NCBI RefSeq assembly: GCF_001021555.1
Contig: NZ_LDCP01000002.1
Span: 186,001-250,000 of the forward strand
Source of the DNA: Aurantiacibacter marinus
GTDB taxonomy: Bacteria; Pseudomonadota; Alphaproteobacteria; Sphingomonadales; Sphingomonadaceae
Reading direction: 5' to 3'
DNA: 64,000 nt
The translations under genes and the position numbers were made by a program. Shown in pieces: positions 4,292-47,696 of the stretch (its first letter is position 1; each line of letters opens with the position of its first letter). A model generated the notes under the pieces. That model did no database searches, was not told where the DNA came from, and saw only the letters and a list, made by a program, of their open reading frames with translations.

Positions 4292-4744
4292 TCAACTCAG
4301 GCGATCGACTTCCTCGTTCGACAGACCGCCCGGAATGACAAACAACGGGCAGCTCAGGGCACCTGCATGCGCAGAAAAGTGCGATACCAGTGGTCCCGGT
4401 GCACCCTCCGGGGCCGCTCCCAGCACGAGAGCGGCAACTTCCGGGTGCTCTTTCAGATAATCGGAAATGACGTCCTTGCCGTCTCCGACGCGGACCGCGA
4501 TTTGCGGCATCTTTCCGCTTTCATAGGCTAGTTCGCCAGCGGCAGAATTGGCCAGTACTTCGGCACGGTCACGCGCCTCTTCCTCGATTGTCGCTTGAAT
4601 ACCACCAAAGGCGCTGAAGGCCTGCCGCGGCACAAGGGCGAGCAGATGCACCATGCCGCCGGTTTTCGCCGCACGGCGCGATGCGAAGCGCAGCGCCACA
4701 TGCGCCTCTTCGGTTTCGTCAACGATGACCAGATAAACGCGCAT
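4292..4744 (-). CDS. Universal stress protein (UspA family)
   Basis: 150 residues with the UspA alpha/beta fold: MRVYLVIVDETEEAHVALRFA at the N terminus, and a C-terminal EVAALVLGAAPEG..GPLVSHF..CPLFVIPGG. The last part is a degenerate form of the ATP-binding G-2x-G-9x-G(S/T) motif (here G..APEGAPG), so nucleotide binding is uncertain. The frame stays open 47 codons further upstream, but family similarity starts at the ATG at 4742-4744, preceded by GGGGA. Usp proteins are cytoplasmic and associated with stress survival. It is convergent with the peroxiredoxin-like gene and divergent from the E2 gene. Confidence 0.85.
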   Translation of the reverse strand: MRVYLVIVDETEEAHVALRFASRRAAKTGGMVHLLALVPRQAFSAFGGIQATIEEEARDRAEVLANSAAGELAYESGKMPQIAVRVGDGKDVISDYLKEHPEVAALVLGAAPEGAPGPLVSHFSAHAGALSCPLFVIPGGLSNEEVDRLS

Positions 4745-44401: not shown

Positions 44402-45403
44402 GTGAAGTCCTTCCGCACATTCGCGCTTTCGGCGCTGCTTGGCGGCGCACTTGTGGCCGCTCCAGCCCATGCGCGTCAGGATGCCGCGCAAGACAATCAG
44501 GCGCAATGGGCCGCGCTGGCGCGTGAAGATGTGCGATTGGCAGGCATTGCTGACACGCTCCTGCGCGCCAATGCAGAGCTGTGTCGTTCTACGATGCCGG
44601 TAACGGGCATGATCCTGCACAGCGCAGATCAATATCGCGCCGGACTAGCAGAGGCGCGATTTGCCAATGGCCCGCTGGCCGTTTCCTCCCTTGTCCCCAT
44701 ATCGCCAGCGGCTCGATCAGGCTTGCTGCCAAACGATGCCATTCTTGCGATCGGTGGACGCAGCATTGCTACGATTGCCCCTCCCGAGGATGGCAATCTA
44801 CGTGAAGCGGCGTTCGACTTACTTGCATCCCAGCCTGCCGATCGCCCGATCAATATTCTGATCGCGAGAGGCGGCGCGCAAATGGAACTGGCGGTTTCAG
44901 CTCCAGCGGGCTGCCGCACATTGGTGGAAATTCTTGTCGGGGATGGTCCTCGGGCGCGTTCGGATGGCCGTGTGATACAGGTGCAATATGGCTTCGCTGG
45001 CGAGCTGACCGATCAGCAAATGGCCGTCGTCATCGCGCACGAACTTGCCCACACTGTTCTTGAACACCGAAGACGCAAGGAAGAGGCCGGTATCGACAAC
45101 GGACTTTTCGCAGAATTGGGCCGAAACCAGCGAGTGAACAGGGCGGCAGAGGTCGAAGCAGACCGGCTATCCATCCATCTGCTTGCCAATGCCGGTTATG
45201 ATCCGACGACGGTGCCAGAGTTCTGGCGTTCGGAAATCGGGCGCGGCCTTGGGGGCATTTTGACAAGCTTCGTATACCCTAGTCAGGAAGCGCGTGCGCA
45301 GATCGTGGAGGAGGAAATGGTTCGCTATCTTCCACAGCGTCGCGGACCAAGCTGGCCGGGCCACTTGCTTGGCCTGCGGGATCGAAATTTTCGCGCGGAT
45401 TAG
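44402..45403 (+). CDS. M48 family metalloprotease with PDZ domain
   Basis: 333 residues with a signal peptide (FALSALLGGALVAAPAHA). A PDZ-like segment (about 90-165: VPISPAARSGLLPNDAILAIGG) precedes the M48 zinc site: VIAHELAHTVLEH (HExxH), with the third ligand in AAEVEADRLSIHLLANAGYD. Periplasmic; possibly quality control of outer-membrane or periplasmic proteins. GTG start at 44402. Its TAG shares TTAG with the convergent flavin reductase stop. Confidence 0.9.
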   Translation: MKSFRTFALSALLGGALVAAPAHARQDAAQDNQAQWAALAREDVRLAGIADTLLRANAELCRSTMPVTGMILHSADQYRAGLAEARFANGPLAVSSLVPISPAARSGLLPNDAILAIGGRSIATIAPPEDGNLREAAFDLLASQPADRPINILIARGGAQMELAVSAPAGCRTLVEILVGDGPRARSDGRVIQVQYGFAGELTDQQMAVVIAHELAHTVLEHRRRKEEAGIDNGLFAELGRNQRVNRAAEVEADRLSIHLLANAGYDPTTVPEFWRSEIGRGLGGILTSFVYPSQEARAQIVEEEMVRYLPQRRGPSWPGHLLGLRDRNFRAD

Positions 45404-45918
45404 GTCTGGCGCACACGCTCCGGCGCAGCGCTGATGTCGATGTAATTCCGGTCAAAATAGGTCAATGGTGTTGCGTCATGACGATGATTGGCCTCGATCA
45501 GCTCACCGATGAAGATCGTGTGCGTGCCGAATTGATGGCGGTCCGCTACTGTGCAGATGAGACTGGATTGTGCATTGGTGAGCACAGGCACACCGTGGTG
45601 ATCCTCCCATTCACCCACTGCAAAACGTTCTTCGGTGGGGATCATGAAATGCTCTGCCACGTCCAGGTTGCTGAGGCCAAGAATGTTGACGCAGAATCGT
45701 TCCGCCTTCGCTAGCGGTTCGTGCAAAGACGCATCCCGATTGATGCATGCGAGCAAGGATGGAGGTGCGAAACTGAGTGAGCTGACTGCAGTGGCAAGAA
45801 TGCCGTAATCGCGCCCTTCATATGTTGTTGTGACCGCATAAACGGTTGCCGCAACGTGGCGCATTGCTTCGCGAAACGATTGCCCGAGTGCGATTTCGCT
45901 CTTTCCTACAGGGTCCAT
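45400..45918 (-). CDS. Flavin reductase family protein
   Basis: 172 residues of the FMN-binding split-barrel flavin reductase family (HpaC/FRP): REAMRHVAATVYAVTT, YGILATAVSSLSFAPPSLLACINRDASLHEPL, FCVNILGLSNLDVAEHF, GTHTIFIGELIEA. Such enzymes reduce FMN or FAD with NAD(P)H, often for a monooxygenase partner that is not seen here. It is divergent from the riboflavin gene ribB and shares its 104-base promoter region. Confidence 0.9.
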   Translation of the reverse strand: MDPVGKSEIALGQSFREAMRHVAATVYAVTTTYEGRDYGILATAVSSLSFAPPSLLACINRDASLHEPLAKAERFCVNILGLSNLDVAEHFMIPTEERFAVGEWEDHHGVPVLTNAQSSLICTVADRHQFGTHTIFIGELIEANHRHDATPLTYFDRNYIDISAAPERVRQT

Positions 45919-45971
45919 ACGCGTTCATTGGCGGCGTCTGCCCTCCGGCGCAAGATGGAATTATGATGGGC

Positions 45972-46012
45972 AATGTGATATTCAGCCATTGCGCTCACAT
46001 TATAATGTGATA
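45972..46012. promoter_or_regulatory. Palindromic operator over divergent ribB/flavin reductase promoter
   Basis: TCACATTATAATGTGA (45995-46010) is a perfect 16-bp palindrome. Being symmetric, it contains TATAAT on both strands, so it may serve as -10 for ribB (start 46023) and for the flavin reductase (start 45918). AATGTGATA occurs at 45972-45980 and again at 46004-46012, spaced 32 bases, about three helical turns. No clear -35 is visible. The position is what a repressor site would need. The candidate regulator is the HTH domain of the adjacent RibB protein; that link is inference. Confidence 0.6.
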
Positions 46013-46022
46013 CTGGCGCCGC

Positions 46023-47273
46023 ATGACCGATACAACAATCGAAAAAGTCCGCAAGATCGTGTCCGGGGGCCTGATGACCCGGGCAGGCCTTGCCCGCGCA
46101 GCCGGCCTCCATGCTAACACCTTGCGTGATTGCGCCGACGAGGGCTGGAACCCCACCACTGACACGCTAAACAAGCTCGACCAGTTCCTGACCGAGAATG
46201 ACGAGACTCCCGTCCTTGTCGGTATTGAGGAGATTATCGACGAAGCCCGCAATGGCCGGATGTACATTCTGGTGGACGACGAAGACCGGGAGAATGAAGG
46301 CGATCTGATCATCCCTGCGCAGATGGCAACACCTGCCGCGATAAATTTCATGGCCATGCACGGCCGCGGCCTTATTTGCCTTTCGCTTGACAGTGCGCGC
46401 GTTGACCAGCTTGGCCTTGAGCCGATGAGCCGGAACAACCGTGAAAGCATGCAAACTGCCTTCACCATCTCCATCGAAGCGAAGGATGGCGTCACCACTG
46501 GCATCTCTGCAGCCGACCGTGCACGTACCGTCTCGGTCGCGATCGACAGCAGCAAGGGCCCGGACGACATCGTCACCCCCGGCCATGTCTTTCCTCTCAC
46601 CGCGCGTGATGGCGGCGTGCTGGTACGCGCAGGGCACACAGAGGCAGCCGTCGATATCTCCCGCCTTGCCGGCCTCAATCCTTCAGGCGTGATTTGTGAA
46701 ATCATGAACGAAGACGGCACCATGGCACGCATGGACGATTTGATGGCTTTTGCTCGCAAGCATGACCTGAAAATCGGCACAATCCGCGATCTGATTGCCT
46801 ATCGCATGCGGAACGATCATCTGGTCGAGCGCGGCGATGAACGCGCGTTTGAATCCGATTATGGCGGGCAGTGGCGGATGATCACCTATCGCAATACGGT
46901 TTCCAACAATGAGGCCTATGTCCTTCAAAAAGGGCATATTGTTCCTGGCGAACCCACCCTCGCCCGGGTTCATCCCATTTCCGTTTTTGATGACGTATTG
47001 GGCCAACCCGGAGCACGCAAGCGCACGCTTCAGCGCGCCATGCAAGCGGTTGGCGATCATGGGTCCGGCCTGATCGTGATCCTGACCGGACGTGTCGGTA
47101 CCGGCGATACGTGGACTGCGGATGAAGAATTGCGCAATATCGGTATCGGGTCACAGATCCTTGCCGACATGGGCGTGCACGATATGATCCTGCTGACCAA
47201 TTCCCAGCCCAATCTTGTCGCAATCGAAGGCTATGGCCTGAACATTGTCGGCCACCACCCCATTCCGGAGTAA
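46023..47273 (+). CDS. ribB: HTH-RibB fusion with inactive RibA-like domain
   Basis: 416 residues in three parts. Residues 5-57 are an XRE-like helix-turn-helix (LARAAGLHANTLRDCADEGW, then NPTTDTLNKLDQFL). Residues about 66-265 are 3,4-dihydroxy-2-butanone 4-phosphate synthase with DDEDRENEGDLI, GITAADR-type GISAADRARTV, GHVFPL and RAGHTEAAVDIS, all active-site blocks intact. The rest resembles GTP cyclohydrolase II but lacks the zinc Cys cluster: HPISVFDDVLG replaces HSECLTGD, with no CxC. So it makes the four-carbon riboflavin precursor but not the GTP-derived one. It is followed three bases later by ribH. No ribosome-binding site is seen; the leader would be very short. Confidence 0.92.
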   Translation: MTDTTIEKVRKIVSGGLMTRAGLARAAGLHANTLRDCADEGWNPTTDTLNKLDQFLTENDETPVLVGIEEIIDEARNGRMYILVDDEDRENEGDLIIPAQMATPAAINFMAMHGRGLICLSLDSARVDQLGLEPMSRNNRESMQTAFTISIEAKDGVTTGISAADRARTVSVAIDSSKGPDDIVTPGHVFPLTARDGGVLVRAGHTEAAVDISRLAGLNPSGVICEIMNEDGTMARMDDLMAFARKHDLKIGTIRDLIAYRMRNDHLVERGDERAFESDYGGQWRMITYRNTVSNNEAYVLQKGHIVPGEPTLARVHPISVFDDVLGQPGARKRTLQRAMQAVGDHGSGLIVILTGRVGTGDTWTADEELRNIGIGSQILADMGVHDMILLTNSQPNLVAIEGYGLNIVGHHPIPE

Positions 47274-47276
47274 ACC

Positions 47277-47696
47277 ATGGCCAATTTTCTGATCGTCGAA
47301 GCGCGTTTCTATTCCCACCTCAACGACATGCTGATCGCCGGAGCGAAAGCCGCGCTGGAATCCGGCGGCCATAGCAGCGAGGTTGTTACCGTGCCTGGCG
47401 CACTGGAAATTCCGGGCGCAATTGCAATGGCAGCCGAGTCCGGACGCTACGATGGCTTCGTGGCTATCGGAGTGGTTATCCGCGGGGAAACCTATCATTT
47501 CGAAATTGTCGCAGGTGAAAGCGCCCGCGCGATCATGGCACTGACTATGGACGGCATCCCCATCGGCAATGGTATTCTAACGACCGAGAACGAAGCGCAG
47601 GCGCTTGTTCGCGCAGACCCTACTCAGAAGAACAAGGGCGGCGAGGCGGCACAGGCAGCCATGCGTATGCTGGAATTGCAGAACCAGTTTGCCTGA
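47277..47696 (+). CDS. ribH: 6,7-dimethyl-8-ribityllumazine synthase
   Basis: 139 residues. It condenses the RibB product with the pyrimidine intermediate. Blocks seen: [47 protein letters not shown] (including the catalytic His), and [15 protein letters not shown]. Length is close to the shorter alphaproteobacterial type. In operon with ribB, so the putative operator would control both steps. Confidence 0.95.

Follow-up and report, generated by a model that had tools for sequence, protein, structure and literature searches.

A predicted autorepressor enzyme: RibBX joined to a phage Cro-like domain, with a putative operator in its own promoter

Why does an enzyme of riboflavin synthesis begin with a domain that resembles phage repressors, and what is the palindrome that stands just before its start codon? 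The question is raised by the ribB gene of Aurantiacibacter marinus, found in a window of 64,000 nt, which is the whole stretch of DNA that was analysed. A preliminary description of this locus had proposed that RibB represses its own gene. Our comparison of related genomes leads to the view that the protein, HTH-RibBX, is probably both the 3,4-dihydroxy-2-butanone-4-phosphate (DHBP) synthase of the cell and a repressor of the unit in which ribBX and ribH would be transcribed together.

The ribB locus of Aurantiacibacter marinus

The features of the locus are the following, in positions of the window.

45400..45918, minus strand: divergent flavin reductase (Pfam), an inconstant neighbour
45972..45980, plus strand: AATGTGATA as a half-site upstream of the palindrome, whose matching half lies 32 nt away
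45989..45994, plus strand: -35-like hexamer TTGCGC adjoining the operator on its 5' side, a putative promoter element (TTG conservation)
45995..46010, no strand: predicted 16-bp palindromic operator TCACATTATAATGTGA, the proximal site, found only with the fusion
46011..46016, plus strand: -10-like hexamer TACTGG with the conserved TA, adjoining the operator on its 3' side, a putative promoter element (TA conservation)
46023..47273, plus strand: ribB open reading frame of the RibBX type, 416 aa (HTH, RibB and RibX)
46023..46208, plus strand: Cro/CI-like HTH of RibB, residues 1-62, recognition helix GLHANTLRD (helix conservation and fold comparison)
46227..46802, plus strand: RibB (DHBP synthase) domain, residues 69-260 (Pfam and the motifs DDEDRENEGD, RAGHTEA and CEIM)
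46839..47270, plus strand: RibX (GTP cyclohydrolase II-like) domain (Pfam), residues 263-416 being cysteine-free
47277..47696, plus strand: ribH, lumazine synthase (Pfam), presumably in the same operon

The RibB domain is complete: it matches the Pfam model DHBP_synthase with 282.5 bits over positions 1-191 of 191, and its three motifs start at residues 85, 202 and 225, with most positions invariant in 44 aligned sequences. The C-terminal part gives only a partial match with GTP_cyclohydro2, best in residues 273-361. GTP cyclohydrolase II binds zinc through cysteines; residues 263-416 have none. The protein is thus of the RibBX type, with RibB followed by a cysteine-free RibA-like domain. Elsewhere in its genome A. 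marinus has a distinct ribA gene (G000:C1:619280-619816), which scores above the curated cut-off.

The first 60 residues or so match no Pfam or NCBIfam model above cut-off. Five relatives were scanned with Pfam and three of them gave weak scores for HTH_3, HTH_31 or HTH_35, all under the cut-off. The AF2 model of residues 1-67 is helical (pLDDT 85.7). Its Foldseek list is headed by HipB, restriction C proteins, P22 c2, 434 Cro and P2 C, with E values of at least 0.19 and probabilities of 0.41 to 0.99 in the top 50. Most of this list is of the Cro/CI type, in line with the helix-turn-helix noted at the start of the protein in the preliminary description, which stays below the Pfam cut-offs. The full-length AF2 model is poor across RibB (mean pLDDT 57.3) and was set aside. 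In the recognition helix the residues G, L, H, N, L and R are identical in 89 of 89 rows, which comprise 88 fusions and one stand-alone protein (L127) discussed below. A search of the A. marinus genome with a profile of this domain has RibB as its sole match.

The palindrome ends 12 nt before the ATG of ribB at 46023, in a gap of 104 nt between the divergent starts of the flavin reductase (45918) and of ribB. The half-site AATGTGATA is present twice, in positions 45972-45980 and 46004-46012, with a spacing of 32. We could confirm these coordinates throughout as they had been described. If up to 3 mismatches are allowed, the window contains one match to the palindrome where 0.08 would be expected, and the 2.84-Mb genome has a single exact copy of TCACATTATAATGTGA. 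There is one other place with 2 mismatches (G000:C3:17901), inside an open reading frame which by eye is cupin/JmjC-like; we have taken it as chance.

Fusion, operator and promoter across the family

Our sample of the family has 119 genomes, in 115 of which a ribB homologue was detected. We have compared 88 loci with the HTH fusion and 39 without it: 27 primary genes and 12 second copies. Within 250 nt upstream the best match to the palindrome TCACATTNNAATGTGA reaches at least 11 of 14 positions in 84 of the 88 fusions, with 26 perfect cases, whereas it stays at 7 to 9 in all 39 non-fusion loci. Shuffled sequences score 11 of 14 in less than 1%. One fusion (L070) has a score of 9 which results from a misplaced start; in its genome (G115) the site at ribB is perfect.

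The tree of RibB contains 123 of the 127 rows; a filter of length and coverage dropped L118 and three RibB-only copies (L130, L131 and L132). In this set a palindrome of at least 10 of 14 is found in 87 of 87 fusions and in 0 of 36 non-fusions, which is the outcome that the preliminary description had named as support for its proposal. The best topology has 10 gains or losses of the fusion, 6 of which are forced by well-supported branches, and all six independent pairs on such branches agree (p=0.031). The tree was rooted at its midpoint, and a gain of the fusion cannot be distinguished on it from a loss. Throughout this sample the HTH domain and its predicted operator come and go together. 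L118 itself, from a genome (G007) with 86% estimated completeness and 7% contamination, is a copy of the ribB fusion that contains an in-frame TGA and has a 14/14 operator upstream.

The site is also rare elsewhere. With at most one mismatch the palindrome pattern occurs in 71 places of 68 genomes among the 119, and 64 of these sites, spread over 63 genomes, sit at a fused ribB; the reversed pattern has one match in each of 2 genomes. The system looks like a one-target autoregulator of ribBX, to judge from these 64 sites and from RibB being the sole match of the HTH profile in A. marinus. Out of the seven sites away from ribB, two lie in prophage-like stretches (G017, and G101 before a terminase-like open reading frame) and three overlap open reading frames; the site of G079 is inside an aldo/keto reductase-like one. 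A wider regulon was considered and rejected: these seven sites are in prophage-like stretches, within open reading frames or single cases, and in the A. marinus genome the ribE stretch has a best score of 11/14 at its extreme edge, the others reaching at most 9/14.

Two of the stretches deserve a separate description. In G103 a 14/14 operator-like palindrome (L241:1930-1945) is found between open reading frames, downstream of ribBX-ribH and of an aldo/keto reductase-like frame. In G101 palindromes precede the terminase-like frame (L240:2186-2316); the first of them, TCACATCACAATGTGA, is the opposite-strand reading of the ribB operator of the same genome.

It is very unlikely that the palindrome serves another regulator, either CRP/FNR-like or a separate XRE protein, and accompanies the fusion by accident. 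The half-sites TGTGA/TCACA do resemble CRP sites, but their order is everted with respect to CRP; a global regulator would have many sites, not 71 in 119 genomes with 64 at fused ribB. The site is absent from the 36 tree rows that lack the HTH, no other protein of A. marinus matches the HTH profile, and phage genes with a related helix carry the same operator, as described below. A CRP-like site was rejected on the order of its halves and on its rarity in the genomes.

For the promoter we have joined the 88 family fusions with 80 named loci from species genomes, which are the best 80 of at least 581 relatives found in the species-genome scan. These 80 come from Aurantiacibacter, Erythrobacter, Qipengyuania, Croceibacterium, Novosphingobium and other genera. 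The 168 promoters, 161 of them unique, had their start codons re-chosen by script. A proximal palindrome of at least 10 of 14 is present in 150 of the 161 and missing in 11. The exact core TCACA-N6-TGTGA is found within 110 nt in 127; among the other 34, all except one (L065) have ACA-N6-TGT within 75 nt. The gap between operator and start codon is usually 12-14 nt.

The preliminary description had drawn attention to TATAAT inside the palindrome. This motif is not conserved: the central two bases differ between loci, and conservation is found instead in the flanks, TTG and TA. Counted from the palindrome, 114 of the 150 promoters have TTG within -8 to -2 and 101 have TA at +16/+17; base counts over 157 of the 168 loci place the enrichment of TTG at -7 to -4 and that of TA at +16/+17. 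Neither TTG nor the A of TA is mirrored on the other side of the palindrome, so they look like parts of a promoter rather than of the operator. TTG would be the -35 element and TA the -10 element, and the spacer of 16-17 bp between the two would be taken up by the palindrome. From this spacing the start of ribB transcription is predicted at or near the ATG. A standard consensus scan finds no sigma-70 promoter in the window. Alphaproteobacterial promoters without T at -7 of the -10 element, a trait that is extreme in Novosphingobium aromaticivorans, are described in passages of PMC8407463; for the same species a genome-wide set of transcription starts is published (PMC7471390). The missing -7 T may explain why such a scan does not find the ribB promoter.

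A second half-site is often placed upstream. The right half AATGTGA is found with at least 6 of 7 matches at upstream shifts of 26-35 nt in 113 of the 150 promoters, with a preference for 30-32 nt, against 6 of 150 at control shifts of 41-50.

A protein bound at the palindrome would block RNA polymerase. The conservation of promoter and operator could fit activation as well as repression, and the half-site about 30 nt upstream could seat an activator dimer; we consider it unlikely that the HTH binds the operator and activates, or that the fusion mainly serves an interaction independent of DNA. The best conserved site occupies the promoter spacer, where repressors usually bind, and the Cro-like relatives are by analogy repressors. 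A hairpin in the ribB leader, with control of translation, is the least probable of the readings that we have weighed. The palindrome is able to form a stem, 12 nt upstream of the ATG, but this fold is not clearly better than that of shuffled sequences (z -1.0, with 35 of 200 as good). The position of TTG and TA would leave the palindrome untranscribed, and the same layout before phage genes varies with the recognition helix. Three observations speak strongly for autoregulation by way of the palindrome: it is found with the fusion and not without it, its sites are almost exclusive to ribB, and they sit in the putative promoter spacer.

The neighbour genes are less constant. A ribH gene follows on the same strand in 66 of the 88 family fusion loci and in 79 of the 80 species-genome loci. 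A divergent homologue of the flavin reductase accompanies only 17 of the 88 and 28 of the 80, and ribE is upstream on the same strand in 30 of the 88, all 30 of which keep an operator of at least 10/14. The coordination of riboflavin synthesis with flavin reduction, suggested for the A. marinus locus, is therefore rejected as a general rule.

Phage relatives of the domain and origin of the module

The link with phages was absent from the preliminary description: the domain and the layout of the operator match those of phage Cro-like genes. Small stand-alone HTH genes are present in three of the 119 family genomes (G017, G036 and G021), each facing an open reading frame similar to an HTH-S24 repressor, which Pfam confirms for G017 only. 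Further ones are found on viral contigs and in the isolate record Pseudanabaena phage Pan3. The HTH of the window has 54% identity over 56 aa with viral contig L214 (tblastn, E 3e-16 when calculated over the candidate stretches alone), and that of L127 has 48% with Pan3 (E 3e-9). The profile found 35 stand-alone loci, which reduce to 22 distinct genes after leaving out 12 repeats and L217, which has no assigned start. Their proteins have 60-91 aa.

A palindrome with at least 5 of 6 outer pairs starts 24-34 nt before the ATG in 19 of these 22 genes, while shuffled sequences lead us to expect 1.0. In 11 of the 19 it starts at -29; in ribB it is mostly at 28-30. In 20 of the 22 genes a TTG precedes the best site by no more than 9 nt. 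A smaller set of genes obtained with a regular expression, which missed some of them, has the palindrome in 12 of 15 against 0.6 expected.

The palindromes are of several types, each associated with its own helices, as listed here.

Helices HPNTLR, HPNTLQ, HRNALR: CACA-N6-TGTG (L127, L292, L294, L281, L283)
Helices HRNTLY, HHNTLL, HRNTLN, HPNTLL: GCATAT-N4-ATATGC (L128, L129, L221, L289, L290, L291)
Helices DTTLR, DTVLR: forms of GCAT-N4-ATGC (L226, L239, L220, L279), in L220 in one half only

Four more stand-alone genes carry other palindromes. In these genes the sequence of the palindrome changes along with the predicted recognition helix. There are misfits: L215 (HANTLR) and L219 (HPNTLR) have only 4 of 6 pairs with a helix of the type HxNTLR as in RibB, and in L218 the palindromes are located farther upstream. 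L217 had no proximal palindrome in an earlier comparison of the stand-alone loci. An additional site 28-33 nt upstream is found in L127, L218, L226 and L239. The prophage of G017 has two operator pairs, each 31 nt apart (L243:1873-1919 and 4652-4698), the second of which precedes the stand-alone HTH gene. A divergent repressor-like open reading frame was found in 7 of the 11 stand-alone loci searched; five of these seven were scanned, with Peptidase_S24 in four and only an HTH in the fifth (L218).

Outside the family the fusion with RibB disappears from our samples. In 289 genomes of the class the HTH profile matches 13, of which 3 belong to the family; the 11 HTH loci of the ten other genomes have no ribB near the HTH. 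In 147 genomes of the order there are 60 matches, 57 of them from the same family. The remaining three are a stand-alone phage-type gene (G414) and two genomes (G432 and G476) in which the HTH stands before CoaBC. In these two the gene codes for the HTH followed by the Flavoprotein and DFP domains (L237:991-2463 and L238:809-2290, both on the minus strand). This fusion is found in 2 of the 29 genomes of its family (28 with a match), and the upstream regions of the two loci have no clear palindrome or operator, which leaves it as a weak side case.

It seems, from these comparisons, that ribBX captured a phage Cro-like domain together with its promoter and operator. The direction from phage to host is likely, because the stand-alone forms are diverse and occur in viruses as well as beyond the family, whereas a fusion with RibB is seen in our samples within a single family only. 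The capture probably took place in an ancestral sphingomonad, and some lineages have probably lost domain and operator together at a later stage; we infer losses of the fusion rather than repeated gains. A broader proposal, to which we lean slightly, is that a complete phage early-gene module (cro-type promoter, tandem operators and HTH) was captured as one piece before an essential vitamin gene and became a Cro-like autorepressor, with an output which is maybe gated by substrate or flavins. The same HTH family would have joined CoaBC independently, so that domains taken from phage switches may repeatedly have supplied cofactor enzymes with built-in feedback.

Proposed mechanism and comparison with known systems

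RibB is a homodimer in known structures. Such a dimer would pair two HTH domains on the palindrome, which sits between the two hexamers taken as -35 and -10 of the ribB promoter. The half-site farther upstream, by about 30-32 nt, is weaker and may become occupied once more protein is present. Bound HTH-RibBX would exclude RNA polymerase, and the concentration of RibB would be set by negative feedback. The layout appears to be that of the cro-like early genes of temperate phages: a small HTH protein, a palindrome about 29 nt before the ATG with TTG directly 5', often a further site upstream and often an S24-type repressor gene opposite. Binding by HTH-RibBX, repression, the geometry of the dimer and the order in which the sites are occupied are what we infer from the sequences.

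It is possible, though we think it less likely than not, that HTH-RibBX binds the operator and acts mainly as a trigger enzyme gated by a metabolite, its DNA binding being altered when substrate or flavin binds to RibB or RibX; this reading overlaps with autorepression. PutA, BirA and RbkR show the classic arrangement of a pathway enzyme that carries a DNA-binding domain, and the RibX domain, which in the window protein lacks the zinc cysteines, is kept in 44 aligned fusion proteins. However RibX is also present in RibB proteins without the fusion, where the matches mostly reach residues 409-416, so it did not arise for gating. The sequence indicates no effector, and feedback by concentration suffices, as in phage Cro.

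Gating would also be in line with the lack of a riboswitch in the family sample. In the usual description of bacterial riboflavin genes it is the FMN riboswitch that controls them. In agreement with the preliminary description, the window has no FMN riboswitch (RF00050) at the gathering score. It was found in 0 of the 119 family genomes, fused or not, with stricter filters which lose weak matches; the same search was positive in 7 of 14 control genomes. As the search found no riboswitch in the genomes without the fusion either, the HTH fusion need not be a replacement of it.

For autorepression by HTH-RibBX, most sampled genomes of the family appear to use RibB itself as a DNA-bound governor taken from a part of a phage switch, which links phage control modules to core metabolism. 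It would offer a compact self-limiting expression module, and a clear and cheap system for testing how an enzyme may be coupled to a repressor. It is also an example of how a regulator domain below the Pfam cut-offs can hide inside a gene annotated as a plain enzyme. We have found no description of a bacterial HTH-RibB in the open-access PMC literature, a scope outside which most subscription papers lie, nor in the same literature one of a vitamin enzyme that captured a phage promoter, operator and domain.

Several known systems are related to this one. RibBX was reportedly described by Brutinel et al. in 2013 as RibB followed by a RibA-like domain without GTP cyclohydrolase activity. The order RibB-RibX, the cysteine-free RibX and the separate ribA are common to the A. 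marinus protein, which differs by its N-terminal Cro-like HTH and by the putative operator in its own promoter. Enzymes that repress themselves are already known: PutA, BirA, NadR and RbkR. The first three are trigger enzymes with a DNA-binding domain that repress genes of their own pathway; they differ from HTH-RibBX in their domains, and their effectors are known. The archaeal RbkR joins an HTH to riboflavin kinase and regulates riboflavin genes. It is likewise a flavin-pathway enzyme with a DNA-binding domain, but it is archaeal, contains another enzyme and presumably has a separate origin; the parallel drawn in the preliminary description holds as an analogy and goes no further. Parts of a study of Wolbachia wBm (PMC3518464) deal with XRE-type regulators of the T4SS and ribA: these proteins are also tied to a riboflavin gene, but they stand alone and are not fused to an enzyme. 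The closest relatives are the phage Cro-like genes beside S24-type repressors (L127, L221, L239 and L292), which have in common with ribB the HTH family, the position of the operator and the adjacent TTG, and for the helices HPNTLR, HPNTLQ and HRNALR also the operator sequence. The phage version is a stand-alone protein, often with an S24-type repressor opposite, whereas that of ribB is fused to the enzyme and has no opposing repressor.
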